Of a DNA stretch of 64,000 bases, positions 50,766-64,000 are shown in pieces. The stretch's first letter is position 1; each line of letters opens with the position of its first letter. The notes under the pieces were generated by a model. The model saw only the letters and a program-made list of their open reading frames with translations, searched no databases and had not been told where the DNA came from. Source of the DNA: Acinetobacter venetianus RAG-1 = CIP 110063 (lineage in GTDB: Bacteria; Pseudomonadota; Gammaproteobacteria; Pseudomonadales; Moraxellaceae); assembly GCF_000368585.1 (NCBI RefSeq), contig NZ_KB849557.1, positions 37,763 to 101,762 of the forward strand, read 5' to 3'. The translations under genes and the position numbers were made by a program.

Positions 50766-53700
50766 TTAGGCTTTAGAAATACCAAAGCCATAGTCATAAT
50801 ACCAAGTTGGTGGATTTTCGCTGTTATATAGTGTCAAAGAAACTCGACAACCTTGCTCCTCAGAAATTTTATATTCATGGCAATAATCCAGCATTTGTTG
50901 TGGTGTCAGCGCCAACCATGCTTGTGCTGTCGCAGCTCGCTCATCAAATTTGATTCGGTCCCACACTAACCCATACTTACTGTAGTTGGCATATTGACTT
51001 GCTTTGACATCAAGACCATACACCTGTTTTTCTACAACCAAACCATCATCCCATTTAAACTTATAAATTTCTTGGTAATTCCGTTCTCGTAAAGATGTTT
51101 GATTATAGATGTGTTCCGTCATAACACAGGCATCAACATCAGGACGAGAAAACATTTGCTCCCCCTGATCATAAAAATAATTTTGACAAAACTTCTGAAT
51201 CTCTTGATCGTCTAATTGCGCAAACAAGCAGTTCTGTTGATCAAACCGCAATCGAGCGTTAATCACCAGTTGCTGATTTTGATCCCATGGCAGTAATTCC
51301 GACAAGTTTTGTGTTTTATAGGTATTTATAATATTTGGTGATGAACTATAGCCTTCATATCCTGGATAGATAAAAGCACTCGTTCTTCGAATCCCCTGTT
51401 TTTTGTGGCGTTCCCTATCTCTATCTTGGCAATAACGATAATTCCATTGTGGAATCATCACATTAGGCTGCTTAATTTTATCTAAACGATGTCGATTGAC
51501 CCGCCCTGCGGTTTGCACAATAGATTGTACGCTCGAAGCATCAATCACCGCCCAATCAAAATCATGGTCTCGTCCCACCTCTTCGACTGGCGTTGCTATA
51601 ACGATAAAAGGTACGGAACTCGCAGAACTGTGTTTAGCAAGCTCTACCACCTCAGTATCTTTTAAAATCTGTTCATTACCCGTTTTTCTTTTTTTGCCAT
51701 CTTTATGTCGAGTTAAAAGCTGATCCAAACGCTGCTCTTTATAAAAACGAGAAATCAACCAATCATTGGCATGGTAGCAAGCCACTTTTGCCTCCGACCA
51801 ATACTCAGATAGAAACTGGGCCAGTCCAATCGCATGCTTGATATTAGCAACCCGAATCAAGCCAAATGAAATTTGTTTTCCTGTTTGACTAAAATCCCAA
51901 GCATGATCATGATGCAATGTTTGGGCTGCTGCCAATACCGCCTGTTTCCAACCCAATACCGAAGTATCCGTGAAGGAAATAAGCTGTGCCAAACGATAAG
52001 TTGGCTTTTCCATTAAATGGGTTTGCAAGGCATCAAGATGCTGCTGATATTTGGTATTGAAATCAGATGGCTGATCTGAACAATCTAACCAAATTTGCGG
52101 TTTAAGTTCATTATCAATCACAGCAATGATTGATTTTTGTTGTTTTCCATATAAAGCAGAGCGCATTTGTATACCTGACTCAAATGCTCGATGAATCGTT
52201 TTAGCGACTGTCATTGATAAAGTTGCAGATGAACAAATCACATTACGCCCGTACATCGCAGCCAATTGCACCAAACGCAGCACGGCTATCAGGGCTTTGG
52301 GTTCATAGCCATCAATTTCATCTAATATCAAATCACTACTGATCACACGGAGTAAGGCTTTGACATGATGACCTTGCCGATGTGGCTCACCAGCAGCAAT
52401 TAAATAATCAACGGTTGAGACCAATAAGGGTGATGCCAGTACAGTCATGCTCTTTTGGTCTGGAACTTTTCGACCTTTTTGTTCAATGCTAAATAAGGGA
52501 TTGAGCCAATCAGGTAAACCACACTCATCCCCAAAGGCATCAAAAATAGGCTCAATCCGATTTTCATCTTCATCTATATAGGCAGTTAATTTAGCAGCAT
52601 TAAATAAATTTTGTGTGACAGTATCACCAATAACAACAGCGATTTCCTCATCAGAAAGACTCATCGAAGATTGCAAGGCATGGCCTGTTTGCAAGGTTAA
52701 AGAGCGTAAATTTAATGCAATACTAATACGCGGATCATCAGGTCTTAAGGTACAAGCCGCTCGTAAATTCATACGGGTTTTCCCGCTGCCAGTACCTGCA
52801 ATATTCAAAATTAAAGCGGGTGTGTCTGGCATTTTCTGAATCTGTTTTTGTAATGCATTCGCCGCAATGTTCTGCCACTGGAAACGTGGGTGAGTTGTTG
52901 GCTGGCAGATATAATCGACCGTTTGCTCAGATAGTCCTGATAAATTCAAATCAGTCATCATCTGAACAGCGATACGAGAGGCTCGATCACCGACTTGGTG
53001 TAAATGCCATTCTAAAGGTTGATCTTGTATTTTTTCCTTTTTGTCTTTCTCTATCTCTTTAAATTTTGTATTGGCAAACAATGTGAAATTTTCAGGTTTT
53101 ACTGCTGAAAACTGCTGAGCAGAAACAATATGATCGGCATGGATCAAGGCAGCTCGTGAATGTAGTACCAATGCTTTCCAATAAAGTCGTTGATCCTCTG
53201 GCTTGGAAACAGGCTGCTCAGGCAGCAGTGCCATTAAACGCTGCATGCGTTTTTGATGACTACTAAAGATAGAATTTGGCAAATCCCCTGCACATTTTAA
53301 TTGATTGACGTGAGGATTTAGCGCTCGAACATGATTTTCATAATGCGGTAATGCATTGAAAGGAGGATGATCCCCATCAGGTTCAATACCCAATAAGCCA
53401 TGATGGGTAACTACAAGGTAATCAACCGCTTCAAACTGGTTGGAGATACCATATTCTGAGTCATGATTAATTTCACGATCGCCCAAAGTAAATTTCTCAA
53501 TTCCCCTATTTAAATTGTTCCAAGCAAATTGCCAATTCCAATTATTTTTTCTGAGTTGTTGTAACAGCTTCATAGAGAGCCATTCGTGGCGGACATCATC
53601 TTTGATGCGTTGTCCTGCCATTTCGGGGCTGAGTTTTTGTTGAAAATGCACTGATGCCTTGCCAATATCATGCATATCCCCTGCTGCACCTGCCAATAAG

Positions 53701-54029
53701 CTACTAGCTTTGACCCAGTTTTCTAGCATCAATCGCTTTTGATGTTTCTTGGTCGAAGCAATTGGATAGGCGCCATCTAAAGCAAACTTTTGTTTAGCTC
53801 CTACCACCCAAGCCAGTTTCATCCGTCGCATACCAAAATTTCGATAGGCAGCTACTGCGGTTTGCCGAGTTGCGACTTTATTTAATGCACTTTTGATTTC
53901 TTTTAAAGCTGCTTCTGTCATTGGCGCATGCCAAGAAGTATGTCCTGTACGGATAGCATAGCTATCTAAAATCGCTCTAGTCTTTTTTAAAGCTCTTTTT
54001 TCGCAAGCGGAAATGAAAATAACGTGCAT
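50766..54029 (-). CDS. cas3: Type I-F Cas2-Cas3 fusion nuclease-helicase
   Basis: 1087 aa. Cas2 domain at residues about 1-100 (MHVIFISACEKRALKKTRAILDSYA). HD nuclease with His120-Asp121 in GDMHDIGKASVHF and VVTHHGLLGIEPDGDHPPF. SF2 helicase with Walker A AGTGSGKT at about 411-418, DEID at about 570-573, SSATLS, and arginine-finger region GRVNRH. It is recruited by the Csy complex to degrade invader DNA and joins Cas1 in spacer acquisition. Unusually, it points away from csy1 and ends beside tRNA-Arg. Its promoter region contains a 10-nt match to the nearby CRISPR-like guide. Confidence 0.96.
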   Translation of the reverse strand: MHVIFISACEKRALKKTRAILDSYAIRTGHTSWHAPMTEAALKEIKSALNKVATRQTAVAAYRNFGMRRMKLAWVVGAKQKFALDGAYPIASTKKHQKRLMLENWVKASSLLAGAAGDMHDIGKASVHFQQKLSPEMAGQRIKDDVRHEWLSMKLLQQLRKNNWNWQFAWNNLNRGIEKFTLGDREINHDSEYGISNQFEAVDYLVVTHHGLLGIEPDGDHPPFNALPHYENHVRALNPHVNQLKCAGDLPNSIFSSHQKRMQRLMALLPEQPVSKPEDQRLYWKALVLHSRAALIHADHIVSAQQFSAVKPENFTLFANTKFKEIEKDKKEKIQDQPLEWHLHQVGDRASRIAVQMMTDLNLSGLSEQTVDYICQPTTHPRFQWQNIAANALQKQIQKMPDTPALILNIAGTGSGKTRMNLRAACTLRPDDPRISIALNLRSLTLQTGHALQSSMSLSDEEIAVVIGDTVTQNLFNAAKLTAYIDEDENRIEPIFDAFGDECGLPDWLNPLFSIEQKGRKVPDQKSMTVLASPLLVSTVDYLIAAGEPHRQGHHVKALLRVISSDLILDEIDGYEPKALIAVLRLVQLAAMYGRNVICSSATLSMTVAKTIHRAFESGIQMRSALYGKQQKSIIAVIDNELKPQIWLDCSDQPSDFNTKYQQHLDALQTHLMEKPTYRLAQLISFTDTSVLGWKQAVLAAAQTLHHDHAWDFSQTGKQISFGLIRVANIKHAIGLAQFLSEYWSEAKVACYHANDWLISRFYKEQRLDQLLTRHKDGKKRKTGNEQILKDTEVVELAKHSSASSVPFIVIATPVEEVGRDHDFDWAVIDASSVQSIVQTAGRVNRHRLDKIKQPNVMIPQWNYRYCQDRDRERHKKQGIRRTSAFIYPGYEGYSSSPNIINTYKTQNLSELLPWDQNQQLVINARLRFDQQNCLFAQLDDQEIQKFCQNYFYDQGEQMFSRPDVDACVMTEHIYNQTSLRERNYQEIYKFKWDDGLVVEKQVYGLDVKASQYANYSKYGLVWDRIKFDERAATAQAWLALTPQQMLDYCHEYKISEEQGCRVSLTLYNSENPPTWYYDYGFGISKA

Positions 54030-54142: not shown

Positions 54143-54171
54143 ATCTCAACAAAGTTGAATCTGTAACTTTA

Positions 54172-54558
54172 TTATATTTCAGACAGTTCATATAAGAAAT
54201 CAGAAACAATTTTAGCTAAATCTTCATGTTGCTCCTGACTCTCAACAATATCAACCATTAGATCATCTAAGCCTGTACTCTCATGAATAGACACTCCTTG
54301 AATCTCTAAAAAAGTCAGCATTACAGCTAGTCCTGTACGCTTGTTACCATCCACAAAAGCATGACCTTTGGCTAAAGCAATACCATACCATGCTGCTATT
54401 TCAAACAAGTCATTCACATCATTATAATAAATTTGCTGATCAATACGTCCCAACACGCTCTCTAATTTTTCAATATGGCACCCTTCTCGCCCCACACCTG
54501 TCTGACGAAGAATCTCGTTATGAACAGCAATTACAAAGGTTGAATTAATCATACTCAT
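54172..54558 (-). CDS. doc: Doc-type Fic-fold toxin (death-on-curing family)
   Basis: 128-aa small Fic/Doc protein. Signature HAFVDGNKRTG (HxFx(D/N)xNKR) near residue 80, plus EIAAWYGIALAKGHAF and AVMLTFLEIQGV. Doc proteins inactivate EF-Tu by phosphorylation; related Fic proteins AMPylate targets. The start overlaps the stop of the antitoxin gene by 4 nt (ATGA), the usual TA arrangement. It lies between cas2-3 and csy1, where it could stabilise the CRISPR island. The N-terminal helix HNEILRQTGVG fits the family. Confidence 0.85.
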   Translation of the reverse strand: MSMINSTFVIAVHNEILRQTGVGREGCHIEKLESVLGRIDQQIYYNDVNDLFEIAAWYGIALAKGHAFVDGNKRTGLAVMLTFLEIQGVSIHESTGLDDLMVDIVESQEQHEDLAKIVSDFLYELSEI

Positions 54559-54734
54559 TTATAAGCAAGCTCTTGTATTTCTTCTTTATGTTGACGAATA
54601 ACACGTTTAGCACTGTGCATAACCATACGCTTAGTTGCTTCATTATTTTCAAACTGAATCGATACGACTTGCCCAGCCCGAGCTGAACGTGTTTTATGAT
54701 TTTCAACATTAAAATCTTTTAATCGTTTGATCAT
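54555..54734 (-). CDS. Antitoxin of the Doc-type pair (small basic protein)
   Basis: 59 aa. It starts MIKRLKDFNVENHKTRSARA and contains a strand-like GQVVSIQFENNEATKRM and a helical, charged C-terminus. A strong AGAGGAA ribosome site is present. It overlaps the Doc gene by 4 nt. The N-terminus could bind DNA and the C-terminal helix could neutralise Doc, as in Phd. I do not recognise its exact family. Confidence 0.75.
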   Translation of the reverse strand: MIKRLKDFNVENHKTRSARAGQVVSIQFENNEATKRMVMHSAKRVIRQHKEEIQELAYK

Positions 54735-54767: not shown

Positions 54768-54795
54768 TCTCTAAGCCATCTAAGCGATGGTAAAA
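54768..54795 (-). repeat. Degenerate CRISPR repeat, downstream copy of the creA-like gene
   Basis: 28 nt, 21 of 28 identical to the array repeat. The stem is CCATC/GATGG with loop GCTTA (loop identical to the array). Compared with the array stem TCATC/GATGA, both arms changed together, so base pairing is kept. Confidence 0.75.
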
Positions 54796-54824
54796 GTCAC
54801 ATATCAACCAATACTAAGTATTAA

Positions 54825-54852
54825 TTTCTCAACCACCTATGCGGCAGTGAAC
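54825..54852 (-). repeat. Degenerate CRISPR repeat, upstream copy of the creA-like gene
   Basis: 28 nt, 19 of 28 identical to the array repeat but about 23 of 28 identical to the widespread I-F repeat as I remember it (stem CTGCC, loop GTATA). Here the stem is CTGCC/GGTGG with loop GCATA and handle TTGAGAAA. It appears to derive from a different I-F repeat lineage than the array in this window. Confidence 0.75.
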
Positions 54853-55044
54853 TATAAACGCTACATGATTAGAATAATCGGTATTTTCTGAGTTATCCTA
54901 TAGTAGCAAAGAACATAATACTACTATTAGAACCCTTCCGATTCTTTTCTAAACCTCCTATATGCGCTGAGATGCTGCCTCCTATCCATGATATCAAATT
55001 TAGACAGAAATATTTTCCAAAAAAACAGCAACTCAAAAAATAAC

Positions 55045-55075
55045 CCTTAATACTTAGGATATTTTGATAGAAAAA
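55045..55075 (+). promoter_or_regulatory. Candidate Csy-complex binding site (target of the creA-like RNA)
   Basis: CC (55045-55046) followed by TTAATACTTAG, an 11-nt perfect seed match starting at nucleotide 1 of the pseudo-spacer. Beyond it, positions 13-14, 18-23 and 28 also match, in total 20 of 29. This partial match is the type that gives Csy binding without cleavage. It lies 14 nt before the -35 of the next promoter. Confidence 0.7.
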
Positions 55076-55088
55076 TTTATATTAAATA

Positions 55089-55115
55089 TTGACAAGGTTT
55101 TATTACATCTATAGT
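55089..55115 (+). promoter_or_regulatory. Promoter of the 33-codon ORF / 72-aa gene
   Basis: TTGACA (55089-55094) and TATAGT (55110-55115) separated by 15 bp. A complex bound at 55045-55078 would sit directly against its -35. Expected transcript start near 55122. Confidence 0.55.
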
Positions 55116-55125
55116 TTTATTATCG

Positions 55126-55185
55126 AATGGACACAAAAAAAGCAGGTATTCTGTGACCAAACTTCATACCTGCCTTAGGTCCATT
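55126..55185 (+). promoter_or_regulatory. Two-tier hairpin in the leader of the small-ORF transcript
   Basis: Outer 7-bp stem AATGGAC/GTCCATT encloses an inner perfect 8-bp stem GCAGGTAT/ATACCTGC. It would form at the very 5' end of the RNA and resembles the stable 5' structures of type I toxin or tightly controlled mRNAs. Confidence 0.55.
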
Positions 55186-55220
55186 TCCACAGCGTCTAAT
55201 TACTCCGGAGGACTATCTCA

Positions 55221-55322
55221 ATGATAGCACAGCCTATATATCTATTTCTACGCAACTTCATGTTGCGAGTTTTGTTAGCTTCTCAACAATTCATCAAGTG
55301 TGAGGGGGTAATATATGTCTAA
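55221..55322 (+). CDS. 33-codon hydrophobic small ORF, candidate toxin or leader peptide
   Basis: 33 aa (MIAQPIYLFLRNFMLRVLLA then SQQFIKCEGVIYV), too short to appear in routine gene calls. A very strong GGAGGA ribosome site lies 8 nt before the ATG. The N-terminal 20 residues form a hydrophobic helix with two Arg. AUA codons at positions 2, 6 and 31 are notable because known CreT toxins act through rare-codon tRNA sequestration. The stop overlaps the ATG of the next gene by a few bases, so translation is coupled. Candidate CreT; could also be a leader peptide. Confidence 0.5.
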   Translation: MIAQPIYLFLRNFMLRVLLASQQFIKCEGVIYV

Positions 55323-55533
55323 ATTTATTATTAATAAGAATCAACAAACAAATGGTGATCATGAGGTTCACAACCTCACCACTGGTTGTTCATTTATGCC
55401 TCAAACTCAAAATAGAATTGATTTAGGTGAACACACACATTGCTCTGGAGCTATTTCATTAGCGAAAAGAAATTGGCCTAAAGCAAGAATCAACGGTTGC
55501 TACTACTGTTGTAATTCCTGTCATACAAGTTAA
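55315..55533 (+). CDS. 72-aa Cys/His-rich small protein
   Basis: 72 aa starting MSKFIINKNQQTNGDHEVHN. It contains HEVHNLTTGC, GEHTHCSGAI and the terminal NGCYYCCNSCHTS, with six Cys and several His that could form a metal site. Strong GAGGGGG ribosome site. I recall similar short proteins with a YYC..CHTS end in other bacteria but know no function. It is expressed from the promoter that carries the guide-RNA target, and lies 141 nt before csy1. Confidence 0.7.
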   Translation: MSKFIINKNQQTNGDHEVHNLTTGCSFMPQTQNRIDLGEHTHCSGAISLAKRNWPKARINGCYYCCNSCHTS

Positions 55534-55581: not shown

Positions 55582-55615
55582 TGCGACATTTCATGTCGCA
55601 ATAATGATCATTATT
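55582..55615. promoter_or_regulatory. Hairpin and 16-bp palindrome upstream of csy1
   Basis: TGCGACAT/ATGTCGCA (loop TTC, 55582-55600), directly followed by the perfect palindrome AATAATGATCATTATT (55600-55615). One may end the small-gene transcript; the other could be an operator of the cas operon. Csy1 has a GGAGA ribosome site. Confidence 0.5.
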
Positions 55616-55674: not shown

Positions 55675-56841
55675 ATGTCCGAACCAAAAAATGATGTTTA
55701 TATAAATGCGTTAGAAGAATCGGTACATTTCTCATTTAAGACGATTAATTCTAATATTGAAAAAGGCGGAATTCGTTTAAATAAACAGCAAGCACTTGAT
55801 TTACCTTATCTCAGCGCCAGAACTTTACTCAATGAAAATTTTTTGATTCCAACCGACTATCAAGCTAACGCAGGCAAGACTGCTTCGTATTTTAAAGTAG
55901 TGAAAGCCGCGATGCTCAATGATGACATCAGTTTAGAAGAGGCTGAGTTTCGACAACAAGTTGAACAACTGAAACCATATATTCAGCCTATTTTTAACGC
56001 ACCTTATCAAGCAGGCATAGAAGATATTGATATTCGTATGCGCCAACTTTTAATTCCTAAAAATGGTGAATATATTTCAATCAGCCCACTCACTGCTGCA
56101 GGTGTGAATTATCTGATAAATCAGGAAATTGATACCATTAATATTGCGCGTAAAGAAAAAGACAGTGAATTTAATGGGATTCAGACTGCAGTTTTTGGTA
56201 TAGGTGGTGCAAACCCACAAAATGTCGGAAGTCTAGTTCGAGCCATGCAACGTCCGATTACCCTCAGCTCACCACAAGCCAGTGAAAAAATCCGTCAAGC
56301 TTTAGCCATTTTCTATAACGGTTTTACTTACCGTATTCTACGTAAAGTGAAATTTGTGAGTGCAAGAAAAAATGCAGGAGCGGCATTAACAGAATGGGCA
56401 AGTATTTTAAATCGACAGCTTTTAATTACGGCTAATAATGTCATTCAGAACTGGCATGAATTAGAAATTTTTTCCCCTTCTACCAACATGGAAATCCGCG
56501 AGCAAGAGCTTAAGTTTCTGAAAATTATTGCTCAAGATGTATTAAAACAAGGCTTTTTTCAAAAGAATATTTTGCAAGAAGCAGAAGCCATATTGCCAAG
56601 TATGGATGAAATAGAGCGTCCATCCTTTTGGGTGCATCCAAGCCAGCCACTTATAATTCAAGGGCTCATTGATCCTGAGCTGCGCGATGATCTTTGGAAA
56701 ACCAAGTTTGCCGATCATCTTGCTAAAAGAATTACCCATGAAACCATTATGATCGAAACAGAAAGTGAAGAGGTCGCCATTAGTTTAGATCACAATGCAG
56801 AGGGATATATTGCCCGACGTTTACGGGAGATCATTCGATGA
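55675..56841 (+). CDS. csy1: Type I-F Cascade large subunit Csy1 (Cas8f)
   Basis: 388 aa, shorter than the roughly 430 aa of the Pseudomonas protein. The conserved GIGGANPQNVGSLVRAMQRPI block matches the Csy1 GG(x)nPQN motif that contacts the PAM region with Csy2. It reads the CC PAM and starts target unwinding. First gene of the csy1-csy2-csy3-cas6f-cas1 run. Csy1 and Csy2 overlap by 4 nt, so they are co-translated. Confidence 0.9.
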   Translation: MSEPKNDVYINALEESVHFSFKTINSNIEKGGIRLNKQQALDLPYLSARTLLNENFLIPTDYQANAGKTASYFKVVKAAMLNDDISLEEAEFRQQVEQLKPYIQPIFNAPYQAGIEDIDIRMRQLLIPKNGEYISISPLTAAGVNYLINQEIDTINIARKEKDSEFNGIQTAVFGIGGANPQNVGSLVRAMQRPITLSSPQASEKIRQALAIFYNGFTYRILRKVKFVSARKNAGAALTEWASILNRQLLITANNVIQNWHELEIFSPSTNMEIREQELKFLKIIAQDVLKQGFFQKNILQEAEAILPSMDEIERPSFWVHPSQPLIIQGLIDPELRDDLWKTKFADHLAKRITHETIMIETESEEVAISLDHNAEGYIARRLREIIR

Positions 56842-57725
56842 GTCGTTATGCGGTTATTCCTCGTATTCGGGTGCAAAATGCCAATATGCAAAGTAATGGC
56901 TTTTTACTGGGTGGTGTGCCACTCATGGCTGCCAATATGTTTGCTCATCATTTGGCCAGACAGTTAGGCACACAAGACCAAGGCATCATATATATTCACC
57001 ATGACCAACAACGTTTAGGCGGTCAGGCATATGGAAAGTTCACACCTGCCCAACGACGTGGTGCGGTATTTATTGGTAAAAAGGATTATTCCTCTAAAAA
57101 TAAATATGCATTGTCTTTACAGCCAACTGCTTCCTGTCATTTAGAATTTAGTCTAATCATTAAGTTTGCCAGTTCTCGATTGAGTCCTGAGAAACTGACC
57201 CATCTTTTAAAACGTAGTCGTTTTGCAGGTGGACAAATTATCGAGTTTTCCGAAATCAGTACACACAATGAAAATGAACTGGAAACAGCTTTAAAAGAGA
57301 TAAAAACAGGCTTTGTGATTTTGGATCGACAAGACTTGTTGATTGAGTATCAACAACGTAATCAGATCAATCGAATTCAGGCATTTACCCAACTTTTAGC
57401 ATTGAAGTCTGATCCACTGAGAACATTTTTTAACGATCAAAGTTTAAGTTGGATTTCTGCAACCAATTTAGGTTATGCCTTGCTTGAAACAGCAACCGAT
57501 CAGCGTGCAGGGATTCGCCAAGCTCAAGATCAGCACAGTACAGCACACGCCTATGCCGAGCCATTAACAGGAATTGTGCAATATTTTTCTCTAGGAGAAA
57601 TTTTACGAAAATCTGCTGAAGCTGACGATTCATCATGGCATGAATTAGAACAACTTTTGTGGACTTATCAATGGCCACAAGATGACATTTTCCTTTTACA
57701 ACAAAACTGTACCAATGCAAATTAA
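56838..57725 (+). CDS. csy2: Type I-F Cascade subunit Csy2 (Cas5f)
   Basis: 295-aa RAMP-fold protein that binds the 8-nt 5' handle of the crRNA and forms the foot of the Csy complex with Csy1. It starts MSRYAVIPRIRVQNANMQSNGFLLGGVPLMAANMFAHHLARQLG, the Csy2 N-terminus. Mid-protein ATASCHLEFSLIIKF-like strands follow. Overlaps csy1 by 4 nt. Confidence 0.9.
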   Translation: MSRYAVIPRIRVQNANMQSNGFLLGGVPLMAANMFAHHLARQLGTQDQGIIYIHHDQQRLGGQAYGKFTPAQRRGAVFIGKKDYSSKNKYALSLQPTASCHLEFSLIIKFASSRLSPEKLTHLLKRSRFAGGQIIEFSEISTHNENELETALKEIKTGFVILDRQDLLIEYQQRNQINRIQAFTQLLALKSDPLRTFFNDQSLSWISATNLGYALLETATDQRAGIRQAQDQHSTAHAYAEPLTGIVQYFSLGEILRKSAEADDSSWHELEQLLWTYQWPQDDIFLLQQNCTNAN

Positions 57726-57749
57726 ACTTTAAATATAAGGATTTTTCAC

Positions 57750-58811
57750 ATGACAATTTTTAAAAAATTACCGGGCAGTCTTTCCCTACAACGTGGCACA
57801 GTCGTGAGTGATGGGGCATTTTTCAACTTATTTGACGATGGTAGACAAGAAGCTTTGCACGTAATGTATCACGGGATTCGAGGTACTCAGAATGTCGCTG
57901 GTAATAAAGAAAAAGGCGCAGCAACAGGTAACTCCCTTGCTCGTGAAGTCACCAATATTCAACTGACTGAATCTGCAAAATTACAACCGAATGCTAAGCT
58001 TCTAGTGAAATGGGATTTTCGTTTTATTGATTTAAGCTACGTGCTCTTTGCCAGTGCATCAAAGGCAGGTGCCGATAAAAGTGAAGAATATAATTTCCGC
58101 CAAGCATTTTTAAGTTTTGTAGATCGTGCCAAACAAAGTGATGGTTTGAAAGAAGTAATCCGCCGTTATATCCGCAATATTGTGAATGGTCGTTGGTTAT
58201 GGCGTAATCGCATCGTCGCTGAAAGTATTGATATTCAAGTGACTGCTCAAGACCACCCTGAGAATTTTAGTTTTGATGCGCTCTCTTATCACCTAAAGAG
58301 TTTTGAAAATCCATCGGAACAAGAACAAAAATTGGCGGATATTTTACTGAAAGGCATTACTGGCGAATCAACCAATGCAGCTTTACACATTGAAGCGATT
58401 GTTGATTTTGGTATGGGCGGTGTTGAAGTTTTCCCATCTCAAAATTATTTAGAAGATAAACCCAAAGGATTTTCTCGCTCTCTCTACCAGCTCACGCCTA
58501 AAAAGCCTGATCACAAAGCCAATGATAATCAATATTTAGGGCAAGCTGCGTTGCGCGACCAAAAAATTGGTAATGCTCTACGCACCATTGATACTTGGTA
58601 TCCACAATTTGAGGAAAACGATAAAAAACCAATTGCAGTTGAACCAAACGGCGCGAATTTAGAGGGACAGATTTTCTATCGCGTTGGTAAAGATAAAGTA
58701 TCTGCATTTGATATTTTAAAAGAAGTAGATGAGCTTGATCCAAACAGTGAAAAAGGTATGTTCCTGATTGCTTGTCTCATTCGTGGTGGCGTTTACTCTG
58801 AAGGTGAATAA
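57750..58811 (+). CDS. csy3: Type I-F Cascade backbone subunit Csy3 (Cas7f)
   Basis: 353-aa RAMP protein; six copies coat the crRNA spacer. Typical N-terminus LPGSLSLQRGTVVSDGAFFNLF, then YHGIRGTQNVAGNKEKGAATGNSLAREVTNIQLTESA and RYIRNIVNGRWLWRNRIVAESIDI. Length is normal. Starts 24 nt after csy2 with an AAGGA ribosome site, and ends 2 nt before cas6f. Confidence 0.93.
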   Translation: MTIFKKLPGSLSLQRGTVVSDGAFFNLFDDGRQEALHVMYHGIRGTQNVAGNKEKGAATGNSLAREVTNIQLTESAKLQPNAKLLVKWDFRFIDLSYVLFASASKAGADKSEEYNFRQAFLSFVDRAKQSDGLKEVIRRYIRNIVNGRWLWRNRIVAESIDIQVTAQDHPENFSFDALSYHLKSFENPSEQEQKLADILLKGITGESTNAALHIEAIVDFGMGGVEVFPSQNYLEDKPKGFSRSLYQLTPKKPDHKANDNQYLGQAALRDQKIGNALRTIDTWYPQFEENDKKPIAVEPNGANLEGQIFYRVGKDKVSAFDILKEVDELDPNSEKGMFLIACLIRGGVYSEGE

Positions 58812-58813
58812 TC

Positions 58814-59425
58814 ATGGATGCTCATTTCTACCTTGATGTCCGTGTACTGGAATCTTCAGATGATACGGATTTAAAACTGGGTCATATTCGTAATCAGATT
58901 TATACCGTGATTCATGGTGCATTTCGCAAACTGCCAGCGCATTATGCGTTGGCGGTGGAAATGTCGGATAAGTTAAAAGCAAAACAAGAACAATTTGAAA
59001 AAAAGCATGGTCGTACCGCTAAACCTAATTTTGATATTTTGCGTATTTTTGCAGAACAACAAGATGAGTTAGAACAACTGATTGAAGCCATTAAAGGACA
59101 CTGGAAAATTCGAGATTACACTGTTCTCGGGACAGCGATTGCAGTGCCTATAGCCAAAATATCAGGTTGGAAAAGTTATCGACGTTTTCGTATACCGACT
59201 CAAAAAGCAGAACGTACCCAACTTTCTGATCAAAATGAGCCTTTGCGCGATAGACGTTTAAAAACAGCAAAAGACAAACCATTTTTTCAAGTCATGAGTC
59301 AAAGTACAGGGCAAGGATTTACCGTCATTATTGATATTCAAGATAGTGAAAATGCAGGACATGGTTTACCTGATAGTTATGGGCTGGCTCGTAAAGAAAG
59401 TCCTTTTGCATTGCCAGTATTTTAG
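58814..59425 (+). CDS. cas6f: Type I-F crRNA endoribonuclease Cas6f (Csy4)
   Basis: 203 aa. It cuts repeat RNA below the hairpin and stays bound as the head of the complex. The catalytic-type His is at about residue 34 in NQIYTVIHGAFRK. The C-terminal half has the G/R-rich RRFRIPTQKAERTQL and RRLKTAKDKPFF basic surfaces, and it ends FALPVF. It must accept both the array repeat hairpin (TCATC/GATGA) and the divergent hairpins of the creA-like gene. Confidence 0.93.
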   Translation: MDAHFYLDVRVLESSDDTDLKLGHIRNQIYTVIHGAFRKLPAHYALAVEMSDKLKAKQEQFEKKHGRTAKPNFDILRIFAEQQDELEQLIEAIKGHWKIRDYTVLGTAIAVPIAKISGWKSYRRFRIPTQKAERTQLSDQNEPLRDRRLKTAKDKPFFQVMSQSTGQGFTVIIDIQDSENAGHGLPDSYGLARKESPFALPVF

Positions 59426-59434
59426 GGAAATAAA

Positions 59435-60388
59435 ATGAGCCAACTTCGTCAGGAACGCAGCAAACCGTTAATGCTTTCAAAGCGAGCTTGTGTATTCTAT
59501 TTAGAGAAAGTACAAGTCGTTTTAAAAGATGATAGAGTTGTATATTTAACCAATAGCTTACAGCCTGTTGAGTATTTTTATAATATTCCTGAGAAAAACA
59601 CGGCTTTTCTTTTATTGGGTAAAGGCAGTTCGATCACGGATGCAGCCGCTCGACGTTTAGCAGAATCCAATGTTATGGTTGGATTCTGTGGCTCAGGTGG
59701 CTCTCCCCTATTTTCTGCTTTAGATTTAACCTTTCTGGCACCTCAAAGTGAATATCGTCCAACTGAGTATATGCAAATTTGGATGAAAGCATGGCTAGAA
59801 GATGATGCCCGTTTACTCATGGCAAAAATATTATTATTGGAGCGTATCGCCTTAGTCTCTGATACTTGGAAAAAGAATATTGATCTGATTCAGCATGGTA
59901 TTTATATCAATGAAAATGCGTTAAATACCTTTAAACAGGATATTGATCAAGCAACCAATCAACAAGAATTATTAGCCGCTGAGGGTCGATGGGCAAAAGC
60001 GTTATATAAAGAGTTGGCAAAAGGTTTTAAGTTTAATTTCACTCGCGATGAGGGTAAAAATTCCCACGATACCATTACAGATATAGCCAATAATTATCTG
60101 GATCATGGTAATTATATTGCTTATGGATATTCAGCCGTTGCCCTAAATGGTATGGGAATTAGTTTTGCCTTACCTATCTTACACGGTAAAACTCGCCGTG
60201 GTGGCTTGGTATTTGATATTGCTGATTTGGTTAAAGATGCTTTTGTCATGCCACTTGCTTTTTCTTGTGCTGCGAAAGGACAAAATCAAAAAGACTTTCG
60301 TATGCAATTGATTGAAACTTGCCAAGATAGTGATCTGTTAGATTATATGTTTGGCTTTATTTCTGAGCTATGCTCTAAAATCAAATAA
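59435..60388 (+). CDS. cas1: Type I-F Cas1 integrase
   Basis: 317-aa metal-dependent integrase that inserts new spacers with Cas2-3. FLLLGKGSSITDAAARRLAESNVMVGFCGSGGSPLF is the N-terminal domain. The C-terminal active-site region reads GISFALPILHGKTRRGGLVFDIADLVKDAFVMPLAF with the His and Asp metal ligands. Located between cas6f (9 nt) and the array leader, not upstream of cas3 as in most I-F loci. Confidence 0.94.
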   Translation: MSQLRQERSKPLMLSKRACVFYLEKVQVVLKDDRVVYLTNSLQPVEYFYNIPEKNTAFLLLGKGSSITDAAARRLAESNVMVGFCGSGGSPLFSALDLTFLAPQSEYRPTEYMQIWMKAWLEDDARLLMAKILLLERIALVSDTWKKNIDLIQHGIYINENALNTFKQDIDQATNQQELLAAEGRWAKALYKELAKGFKFNFTRDEGKNSHDTITDIANNYLDHGNYIAYGYSAVALNGMGISFALPILHGKTRRGGLVFDIADLVKDAFVMPLAFSCAAKGQNQKDFRMQLIETCQDSDLLDYMFGFISELCSKIK

Positions 60389-60485: not shown

Positions 60486-63400
60486 GTTCGTCATCGCTTA
60501 GATGATTTAGAAACTACTATCAATTCGACACCACGATCATGAATAGTTCGTCATCGCTTAGATGATTTAGAAATACATACCCCGAATCGTCGGACGGACA
60601 ATGGTGTTCGTCATCGCTTAGATGATTTAGAAAATCGAAGCCAATGCAGCAGGATTGAATGACTCGTTCGTCATCGCTTAGATGATTTAGAAATTTGAAC
60701 GATGATTTTAATGATGGGTGGTTAAGTTCGTCATCGCTTAGATGATTTAGAAATCGATAGATCACTTGGGCAGGTTGAACAAACAGTTCGTCATCGCTTA
60801 GATGATTTAGAAAAAAGCCCCTCGACCTGCTGTAGCTAATACAGAGTTCGTCATCGCTTAGATGATTTAGAAAGCAAGAGTGGGCAGTAGGGCTAATTTG
60901 TACGGGTTCGTCATCGCTTAGATGATTTAGAAAATGAGCGAGTTGTTGGAAGTGCATCTAGAACAGTTCGTCATCGCTTAGATGATTTAGAAATTAATCA
61001 TCAAGTTGCCCGTACGGATGACACTGTTCGTCATCGCTTAGATGATTTAGAAATCAATCCCTAACCACTTCCACGCCTTTAATTCGTTCGTCATCGCTTA
61101 GATGATTTAGAAATTGATCAGTCAGCAGGCGCTGTTGGATTACTCGTTCGTCATCGCTTAGATGATTTAGAAAGACATGATCAGCGAATTGTGTGAGCCA
61201 CTTCCGTTCGTCATCGCTTAGATGATTTAGAAATTTACTTGAGCATCAGAAAGCATGTTGTTATAGTTCGTCATCGCTTAGATGATTTAGAAAAGCAGGG
61301 TTTACAGCTGTTGAGAATAGAGATGGTTCGTCATCGCTTAGATGATTTAGAAAAACGACAATGATGATCATGCAGATTTAGTAGAGTTCGTCATCGCTTA
61401 GATGATTTAGAAATTAAACATGCTCACCTCCAATGCTTTCGTAGTGTTCGTCATCGCTTAGATGATTTAGAAAATCATGAGCCATACCAGTTAAGTTCAT
61501 AGACTGTTCGTCATCGCTTAGATGATTTAGAAATCAACGGAATCGGTGGCTGCACCATCGAAGAAGTTCGTCATCGCTTAGATGATTTAGAAATTATGAA
61601 GAAGTGAAAAAGGCTGCAAATAAACGTTCGTCATCGCTTAGATGATTTAGAAAGAAATCTGCCAAGGGTGATCCTGATCCAAAATGTTCGTCATCGCTTA
61701 GATGATTTAGAAAATCATGAGCCATACCAGTTAAGTTCATAGACTGTTCGTCATCGCTTAGATGATTTAGAAAGACATAAGGAATTGCTGCAACTGAGTT
61801 ATATAGTTCGTCATCGCTTAGATGATTTAGAAAGCTACATCTGCAACTTGCTGAAATAATGGCTCGTTCGTCATCGCTTAGATGATTTAGAAAAAAGCAA
61901 TCACTGGGCAATTGAACTCTTTAGCGTTCGTCATCGCTTAGATGATTTAGAAATCAGTTTTTCTGAATTCTTCTGCAATCGCTTGGTTCGTCATCGCTTA
62001 GATGATTTAGAAAAGGCATTTCGAAAGCTTGGTTTGGATGCAACGGTTCGTCATCGCTTAGATGATTTAGAAAGCTGATATATATCTTTGCTCCCACGTT
62101 AAAAAGTTCGTCATCGCTTAGATGATTTAGAAAATCAACAACAGATGCAAATATTGCTTTATCAGGTTCGTCATCGCTTAGATGATTTAGAAACTACTGG
62201 GGCATTACTAATAGATGGGGTTTAAGTTCGTCATCGCTTAGATGATTTAGAAAAATGCCCAAGTTCAGGAACTTTACTTGTTGTTGTTCGTCATCGCTTA
62301 GATGATTTAGAAAATTAAATCTGGATTAGTCAAAGGCCTTTCAATGTTCGTCATCGCTTAGATGATTTAGAAAAAGAGTTGAGAAGAAATTAGATAAGAT
62401 CAATCGTTCGTCATCGCTTAGATGATTTAGAAAAATGCACAGATACCACCCAATACAGCCATCCAGTTCGTCATCGCTTAGATGATTTAGAAATGAATTA
62501 CAGAAATTCGCTAAAGGCTTATTACGTTCGTCATCGCTTAGATGATTTAGAAATGCATTCTCTAAAGATGACTTACTAAAAACTTGTTCGTCATCGCTTA
62601 GATGATTTAGAAATATTGCAAGCACAGCCAAAATTATTGAAATTAGTTCGTCATCGCTTAGATGATTTAGAAATTGTAATGGCAGGAAGTACTGGTACAG
62701 GTAAAGTTCGTCATCGCTTAGATGATTTAGAAAACTACCTGAGCTTCTTCTAAAAACTTACCTCTGTTCGTCATCGCTTAGATGATTTAGAAACTTATGA
62801 CGATGTTCATCGAGTTCAGCTATGAGTTCGTCATCGCTTAGATGATTTAGAAATCGCTAAACACGCCACCCATGGCGTTTAGTTTGTTCGTCATCGCTTA
62901 GATGATTTAGAAAATTGAAAGAACCCGATACATAACCCTCACCACGTTCGTCATCGCTTAGATGATTTAGAAAGTCATCAGTTGGGGGAGCATTTTTTAT
63001 ACGATGTTCGTCATCGCTTAGATGATTTAGAAATTGAAGAAGTTTTGCAGGCGAAGCCTTAATCTGTTCGTCATCGCTTAGATGATTTAGAAACAACGAT
63101 GCCAATGGTGATACCACACCTAATAGTTCGTCATCGCTTAGATGATTTAGAAAGTTATGACTGACTTTCTGAATCAAGAGTTTTAGTTCGTCATCGCTTA
63201 GATGATTTAGAAAATCACTGTACCAGTCCATAAAAACAAACATGGGTTCGTCATCGCTTAGATGATTTAGAAATTTTTCTCTTATTAAGCAGTACATTGC
63301 GAACAGTTCGTCATCGCTTAGATGATTTAGAAAAGAGTATGAAGGCAAGAATATGGTTTATGTATGTTCGTCATCGCTTAGATGATTTAGAAAACTCGAT

Positions 63401-64000
63401 TGAGTGATTTATCATATAAAAATGTGTTCGTCATCGCTTAGATGATTTAGAAAGCGATCCAAGACCTACGCGGACAATTCGGTCTGTTCGTCATCGCTTA
63501 GATGATTTAGAAATAAGCAAGAGCATGATCATGATGAAAACTACAGTTCGTCATCGCTTAGATGATTTAGAAATGATGCAAAACATCATAAACGTAGTTA
63601 CTTTAGTTCGTCATCGCTTAGATGATTTAGAAATATATCATTTTTTGTTATAAACATCGAATTTAGTTCGTCATCGCTTAGATGATTTAGAAATATCCGA
63701 TTGAATTAGCGTAACAATTATTTATGTTCGTCATCGCTTAGATGATTTAGAAATTCCCCAGCTCAGGACTATATCGATAAGAAGAGTTCGTCATCGCTTA
63801 GATGATTTAGAAAATCAAGCGAATGATCAAGATTATCCACTACAGGTTCGTCATCGCTTAGATGATTTAGAAAACGGTCGAACTTCTGTGATTTAAAAAT
63901 GAGACGTTCGTCATCGCTTAGATGATTTAGAAAATATGCTAAAACACAGTAGAAACCGAGCTATGGTTCGTCATCGCTTAGATGATTTAGAAATGAAAGG
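60486..64000 (+). CRISPR. Type I-F CRISPR array, at least 59 repeats, truncated by window end
   Basis: 59 repeats of 28 nt, every 60 bp from 60486 to 63993, with 58 complete 32-nt spacers and 7 nt of a 59th. All repeats appear identical. Each has stem TCATC/GATGA, loop GCTTA and 3' handle TTTAGAAA, the I-F pattern. The leader is on the cas1 side, so the newest spacers are at the left. Spacers 17 (61474-61505) and 21 (61714-61745) are identical. The array continues past the window. Confidence 0.98.

Follow-up and report, generated by a model that had tools for sequence, protein, structure and literature searches.

A putative CreA-type guide and its candidate payload between cas3 and csy1 of a type I-F CRISPR-Cas locus in Acinetobacter venetianus RAG-1

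Introduction

The type I-F CRISPR-Cas locus of Acinetobacter venetianus RAG-1 carries a crRNA-like unit in the gap between cas3 and csy1. Which site does such a guide recognize, and what does it control? We addressed this question by analysing a 64,000-nucleotide stretch of DNA (in the following the window) together with related loci from other Acinetobacter genomes. From left to right, the gap contains doc and a short ORF, the guide unit creA on the minus strand, its CC-flanked target and, behind a predicted promoter, a leader hairpin, ORF1 and an ORF for a 72-aa protein (Table 1).

This kind of module is already described in Acinetobacter, where CreTA occupies the cas3-csy1 gap of WCHA45, LoGeW2-3 and ANC3789 (PMC10097628). 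In the WCHA45 module, the guide together with the Csy complex lowers transcription about sevenfold, and protection is lost without the Csy complex (PMC10097628). Here and below, statements on published systems follow the accessible parts of the cited sources. New in the present case are the I-F branch, the payload and the swapping of payloads behind one guide slot. A description of a 72-aa payload was not seen in the literature consulted, which was searched by other terms than this payload; this or a sister locus may be among the 19 further modules mentioned in PMC10097628.

Table 1. Features in and around the cas3-csy1 gap (positions in the window).
Feature	Position	Strand	Remark
cas2-cas3	50766..54029	-	I-F locus
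doc (Fic/DOC)	54172-54558	-	part of 54172..54734, directly downstream of psiR2
short ORF	54555-54734	-	antitoxin position beside doc
psiR2, degenerate I-F repeat	54768..54795	-	hairpin kept
psiS, 29-nt guide (pseudo-spacer)	54796..54824	-	TTAATACTTAG...
psiR1, degenerate I-F repeat	54825..54852	-	predicted TTGAGAAA 5' handle
CC, I-F PAM	55045..55046	+	
target (protospacer)	55047..55075	+	20/29 identical to guide, positions 1-11 all paired
payload promoter (predicted)	55089..55117	+	TTGACA; TATAGT 15 nt or TAGTTT 17 nt behind it
leader hairpin	55142..55173	+	GCAGGTAT...ATACCTGC
start block	55207..55231	+	conserved; SD GGAGGA, small hairpin, AUG AUA GCA CA
ORF1	55221..55322	+	33 codons; 29 codons in four relatives
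72-aa payload protein	55315..55533	+	phrog_4298, conserved Cys/His
8-bp hairpin	55582..55600		payload-csy1 interval, terminator-like on - strand
csy1, csy2, csy3, cas6f	55675..59425	+	Csy complex, predicted guide carrier
cas1	59435..60388	+	
I-F CRISPR array	60486..64000	+	GTTCGTCATCGCTTAGATGATTTAGAAA repeats; runs beyond window end

Results

The guide unit and its target

As proposed in the original prediction, two degenerate I-F repeats flank a 29-nt pseudo-spacer on the minus strand. Their identity to the array repeat is 19/28 and 21/28. The hairpin of the downstream repeat had been said to be changed on both arms with pairing kept, which holds true: the arms differ from those of the array repeat, and both repeats form a 5-bp stem with a 5-nt loop. 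When compared with Rfam, the first repeat provided a sub-threshold CRISPR-DR4 match (25.6 bits at a gathering threshold of 35, E = 0.0074). The 11-nt seed match, the CC PAM and the 20/29 identity at 55047 were likewise reproduced. A crRNA-like unit outside of the array whose divergent repeats keep the hairpin, and PAM-flanked partial complementarity near a promoter region that is kept in relatives (see below), are both characteristic of CreA guides.

To gauge the chance level we scored CC-preceded sites over 20 guide positions. Among the 81 such sites within 1.5 kb upstream of csy1, 55047 was the best (16/20) and the runner-up reached 11. When all 4,549 CC-preceded sites that the two strands of the window offer were scored, 55047 alone exceeded 13/20, with four others at exactly 13. 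Of 5,000 dinucleotide-shuffled guides, five attained 16/20 within the 1.5 kb before csy1. A single copy of the pattern CCTTAATNCTTAG is present in the 3.46-Mb genome, and the reversed pattern is likewise found once. Since PAM-free guide matches of 15-17/20 exist elsewhere in the window (14827, 21144 and 8248), the PAM carries weight.

Several further observations concern the surroundings of the unit. The doc gene and its short upstream ORF share the strand of psiR2 and start 33 nt behind it, such that creA may be the leader of their transcript, an mRNA that Cas6f may trim by its cleavage. DNA resembling 54171-54676 was found in 60 plasmid records, 58 of them from Acinetobacter. Within the array, an identical spacer occurs twice (61445-61533 and 61685-61773, 89-nt stretches with 100% identity). 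The genome of the window, G000, contains further I-F-like arrays at C3:1134874-1138290 and C3:545689-545831, whose repeats mostly show 93-96% identity within the part that matched; a search with the window Csy1 returned a single csy1 copy.

Related loci

Relatives were collected by searching 175 Acinetobacter genomes with the Csy1 of the window, which yielded 18 genomes including the window's own. A seven-row Csy1 profile reached 47/175 genomes, namely these 18, 11 with a longer, L060-like Csy1 and 18 weaker ones. Of the 18 same-branch I-F loci, 11 (ten loci and L023) have both a guide and its CC-flanked target in the cas3-csy1 gap. In each of the ten loci, which like L023 carry two repeats, one CC-flanked site stands out, at 13-18/20 compared to 10-13 for the next best. 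All ten of these targets are on the strand of csy1 and precede it by 474-684 nt.

The 72-aa payload is present in five of the eleven loci: the window, L007, L008 (A. modestus), L012 (A. calcoaceticus) and L013 (a MAG). Three others (L010, L011, L014) carry a KilAC-domain protein, with PF03374 in the two tested, and two (L017, L022) carry small LNLFE-type proteins. The latter share LNLFE, have guide-target pairs upstream and match none of the PHROGs. The creA unit is directed against the payload in the window and in L013 and along the payload in the other 72-aa loci. L020 retains one repeat and a frame that is disrupted and, by eye, KilAC-like, and L015 has a 72-aa gene with an internal stop, the scan finding no creA there. 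Such decaying loci appear to lose both halves, guide and payload.

That the target precedes csy1 on the strand of this gene, at a distance of about 630 nt in the window, would also fit an autoregulation of the CreR type, in which the Csy complex represses its own csy1 operon and the small ORFs are leader genes of it. CreR is known for types I-B, I-E and V-A (PMC13131331) and, as here, is a mini-CRISPR guide in the cas locus (Liu 2023, via reviews). L023 is a possible CreR: its 16/20 target (runner-up 14) lies 193 nt before csy1, and the interval is free of genes. Unlike in CreR, however, the target of the window precedes a separate payload and is not beside the csy1 start; the predicted promoter is 550 nt away from csy1, the interval being occupied by hairpins and the gene of a conserved protein, although transcription may read through into csy1. 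In L009 (G068) a CRISPR array lies directly upstream of csy1 in place of the guide module, and the conserved csy1-proximal block is retained. L016, L018, L019 and L021 possess csy1, but no guide module was found in them by the scan. As csy1 keeps its own upstream block even in the array-bearing L009, we regard autoregulation as quite unlikely.

Co-variation of guide and target

Whether seed and target drift independently in relatives was a check put forward earlier. When it was run, both were found to change together across several guide families. Within the 72-aa group, guide positions 1-5 (TTAAT) are fixed, position 6 is A, T, G, C and G in the five loci, and positions 7-11 vary between CTTAG, CTTAT and TATAG, with each target following its own guide. 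Other payloads are associated with unrelated guides (GAGACTAG, GCGAT, GATGT) that have equally matched targets.

The mismatches are distributed in a characteristic manner. Over the ten loci none were found at positions 1-5 and 7-9 (0/10), one at each of positions 10 and 11 (1/10), and many at positions 6 (5/10), 12 (8/10) and 18 (5/10). Counting the KilAC trio once and leaving out L023 (eight loci), sixth positions within 1-12 mismatched in 11/16 cases compared to 2/80 for the rest, which gives a Fisher p of 3.5e-9 that is optimistic, since the loci are related and their independence is overstated. The corresponding values were 14/24 versus 16/120 for positions 1-18 and 18/31 versus 23/157 for positions 1-24. 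Position 17, which is not a sixth position, mismatched in 6/10 loci and counts against a clean sixth-base pattern. The preference for mismatches at every sixth base corresponds to the pattern of type I crRNAs. For archaeal CreA, pairing at positions 1-5 and 7-11 is required while sixth positions are free (PMC8501985).

Between sister guides the match is not exclusive. The window guide scores 16/20 on the L013 target, equal to its own, and the guides of L010 and L011 reach 18 on the L014 target versus 17 on their own, which counts against co-variation. The guide at 54796-54824 is furthermore predicted to fold on itself, the pair between positions 6 and 12 being A-T in the window and G-C in L013; these two positions are ones that type I guides leave unread.

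One could still consider the mini-array a dead remnant, with the guide-target likeness being due to chance or to common descent from a duplicated stretch. Repeats and target are indeed degenerate, the shuffled guides mentioned above match equally well in 5/5,000 cases, and no obvious creA promoter was seen in the window; in seven relatives TATAAT was read by eye 7-15 nt before psiR1. The sixth-position pattern, the changing seeds with matching targets and the presence of the pair in 11/18 loci argue against a remnant and leave it very improbable. What the sequences themselves show is a guide with a PAM-flanked target, co-variation of the two among relatives and a preference of the mismatches for every sixth base. 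Co-variation and relaxed sixth positions support the earlier reading of a CreA-type guide with a target near the payload promoter, and provide strong evidence for the unit at 54768-54852 being a functional guide.

The payload transcript

For the promoter downstream of the target both predicted motifs were found; its distance had to be corrected from 14 to 13 nt, as measured from the 29-nt match to TTGACA. The promoter is a predicted one: it was absent from the list of a generic promoter scan, which gave 4 promoter-like sites versus a shuffle mean of 8.2. Among the 72-aa loci, no clear TTGACA was found in L008; in the other four the predicted -35 starts 42-52 nt after the first protospacer base and 10-20 nt beyond a 32-nt protospacer. 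The complex would thus sit beside the promoter and not on it, and a mere occlusion of the promoter does not suggest itself. Protospacer and predicted -35 overlap, by contrast, in the KilAC and L022 modules. With targets beside the promoter in one group and over the -35 in the other, the presumed repression need not work by occlusion, and even activation may be conceivable.

A small-ORF transcript had been predicted to follow the target. The small ORF is present, and the picture can be refined in that the transcript combines a start block that is invariant with the gene of a 72-aa protein that is conserved. Its parts are a 5' hairpin, the start block GGACTRTC..AATGATAGCACA that opens ORF1, and the 72-aa ORF. 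We aligned the five 72-aa loci from target to csy1. Invariant columns amounted to 20/24 in the start block (SD to AUGAUAGCACA), 21/84 in the rest of ORF1 and 155/219 in the 72-aa ORF. The dN/dS ratio of the 72-aa ORF was 0.03-0.19 for all ten pairs, indicative of purifying selection, and that of ORF1 was 0.78-1.49 (six pairs among four relatives, the window being left out for length). Together, ratios and column invariance indicate conservation of the 72-aa protein and of the mini-ORF start, but not of the mini-ORF peptide; conservation of the ORF1 peptide ends after MIAQ. The exact start block occurs in 5/175 genomes, which are those of the five 72-aa loci, and a sixth match with 2 mismatches lies inside another ORF.

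The leader hairpin has close copies in L013 and L022 and variants in L007, L008, L012 and L017. Allowing for up to 3 mismatches, a limit that these four variants exceed, its consensus was found in 3/175 genomes, all at csy1 (G000, G153, G155). In G155 (L022), whose Csy1 is 44% identical, it stands before a different payload. Nearly identical leader hairpins thus precede different payloads (the window, L017 and L022); by eye, the loop in L017 is reverse-complemented and the preceding A-run unchanged.

The conserved start block allows for the possibility that the toxic part is the RNA. Like CreT, the SD and the AUG-AUA block would tie up initiating ribosomes or rare tRNA-Ile, and the 72-aa gene would be a passenger. 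This start block is the most conserved non-coding piece, with the peptide that it opens being unconstrained, and AUA is the 7th rarest codon (4.1 per 1000) in 31 mechanical ORFs of at least 250 aa. A terminator-like hairpin at 55251-55267 lies within ORF1. An AUA-based CreT exists (PMC8501985), and an SD with a mini-ORF suffices in the WCHA45 CreT (PMC10097628). The SD and the AUA at codon 2 are invariant in all five loci. However, this AUA is a single one and tandem rare codons are absent, whereas the CreT of H. hubeiense has AUA AUA in tandem. The terminator-like hairpin was not seen in relatives, the 72-aa protein is under clear purifying selection, and the KilAC, L017 and L022 payloads are protein genes that lack the start block behind like guides. 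An RNA toxin appears somewhat unlikely on these grounds. In our preferred view the main effector is the 72-aa protein, and the start block would add a second element that is toxic or controls translation.

The 72-aa protein family

Among 5.8 billion proteins we found 81 homologues of the 72-aa protein. The family, which has conserved Cys and His (35 sequences aligned), matches phrog_4298, a mobile-element family; no match was obtained in Pfam. It occurs in 11 phage and 15 plasmid records and was a lone small gene in the five that were opened. Plasmids, prophages and an inovirus are its hosts, with no visible antitoxin beside it. In G127 and G035 a relative with 58% identity follows a gene that we take to be leuC-like, and no guide was seen in the stretch inspected. 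Given these guide-free relatives in G127, G035, plasmids and phages, the protein need not be strongly toxic.

A solitary family of this kind, on mobile elements and beside leuC, with payloads being swapped between loci, might also be a back-up defence or accessory function that is repressed by Csy and turned on when an anti-CRISPR blocks Csy. PADLOC returned no defence-family match, though, and in the accessible parts of the sources both published types of CRISPR-repressed payload are toxins (PMC10097628; PMC12737573). We consider a role of this sort unlikely.

Discussion

In our view, the creA guide probably brings the Csy complex to the CC-flanked site and likely represses a probably harmful transcript, in a manner resembling CreTA or CrePA. 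Cas6f would cut both degenerate repeats to release a crRNA-like RNA, with which the Csy complex would bind the target and hinder the promoter. Because the guide-target pairing is partial, cleavage would not follow. Once Csy is lost or inhibited, the payload transcript would appear. Its start block with AUG-AUA resembles a tRNA-sequestering CreT, and the 72-aa protein would act as CreP does in CrePA. By analogy with the WCHA45 module, the payload is predicted to be off in presence of guide and Csy complex, and a loss of CRISPR would likely be punished through payload release.

The module shares with WCHA45-type CreTA the position between cas3 and csy1, two degenerate repeats, a CC-flanked and partly matching target and, in the window and L013, a guide gene divergent from the payload. 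It differs by belonging to a distant I-F branch (Csy1 of L060 is 18% identical to that of the window), by a 72-aa protein gene that follows and by a target upstream of the predicted promoter, whereas the published target is downstream of the start site. The published guide is moreover reportedly without canonical seed, while positions 1-5 and 7-9 were never mismatched here. The 33-bp mini-ORF of WCHA45, starting with ATGTTTAGC, had no match in G000. As a positive control, G115 and G121 yielded this mini-ORF next to creA repeats; in G118, ATGTTTAGC occupies the corresponding position. Additional matches of the mini-ORF pattern were two in G003 and G019 and one in G121.

In CrePA (Shu 2025, via the review PMC12737573) a crRNA-like guide silences a phage-derived protein, too, but CreP is said to contain a KilA-N domain, to which the 72-aa protein is unrelated. 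The loci L010, L011 and L014, in which a KilAC protein stands behind the guide and the target overlaps the predicted -35, are CrePA-like and may be nearer to CrePA than the module of the window. Haloarchaeal CreTA (PMC8501985) is alike in the pairing at positions 1-5 and 7-11, the free sixth positions and the rare-codon mini-ORF; unlike the window module it is archaeal, of type I-B, with tandem rare codons and no protein payload.

Beyond the single locus, we tentatively propose, as a possibility of some weight, that the cas3-csy1 gap of this I-F branch is a payload slot. One guide architecture would serve swappable proteins (72-aa phrog_4298, KilAC and two of LNLFE type), which Csy would silence and which would be set free once CRISPR no longer functions. 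As CRISPR-repressed effectors, the members of the 72-aa family could then form a new class and act either as a toxin that stops the cell or as a back-up defence that comes on just when anti-CRISPR wins.

With its natural guide-target pairs, the comparative set allows the sixth-base rule of type I targeting to be derived solely from evolutionary change. Searching for a seed with a CC PAM between cas3 and csy1 offers a way to further modules. Should the proposed reading hold, CRISPR-Cas loci would keep hostages that can be exchanged for one another, and a role open to testing would be assigned to an orphan family of small proteins from plasmids, prophages and an inovirus. Deletion or inhibition of Csy in such strains could then act beyond immunity.
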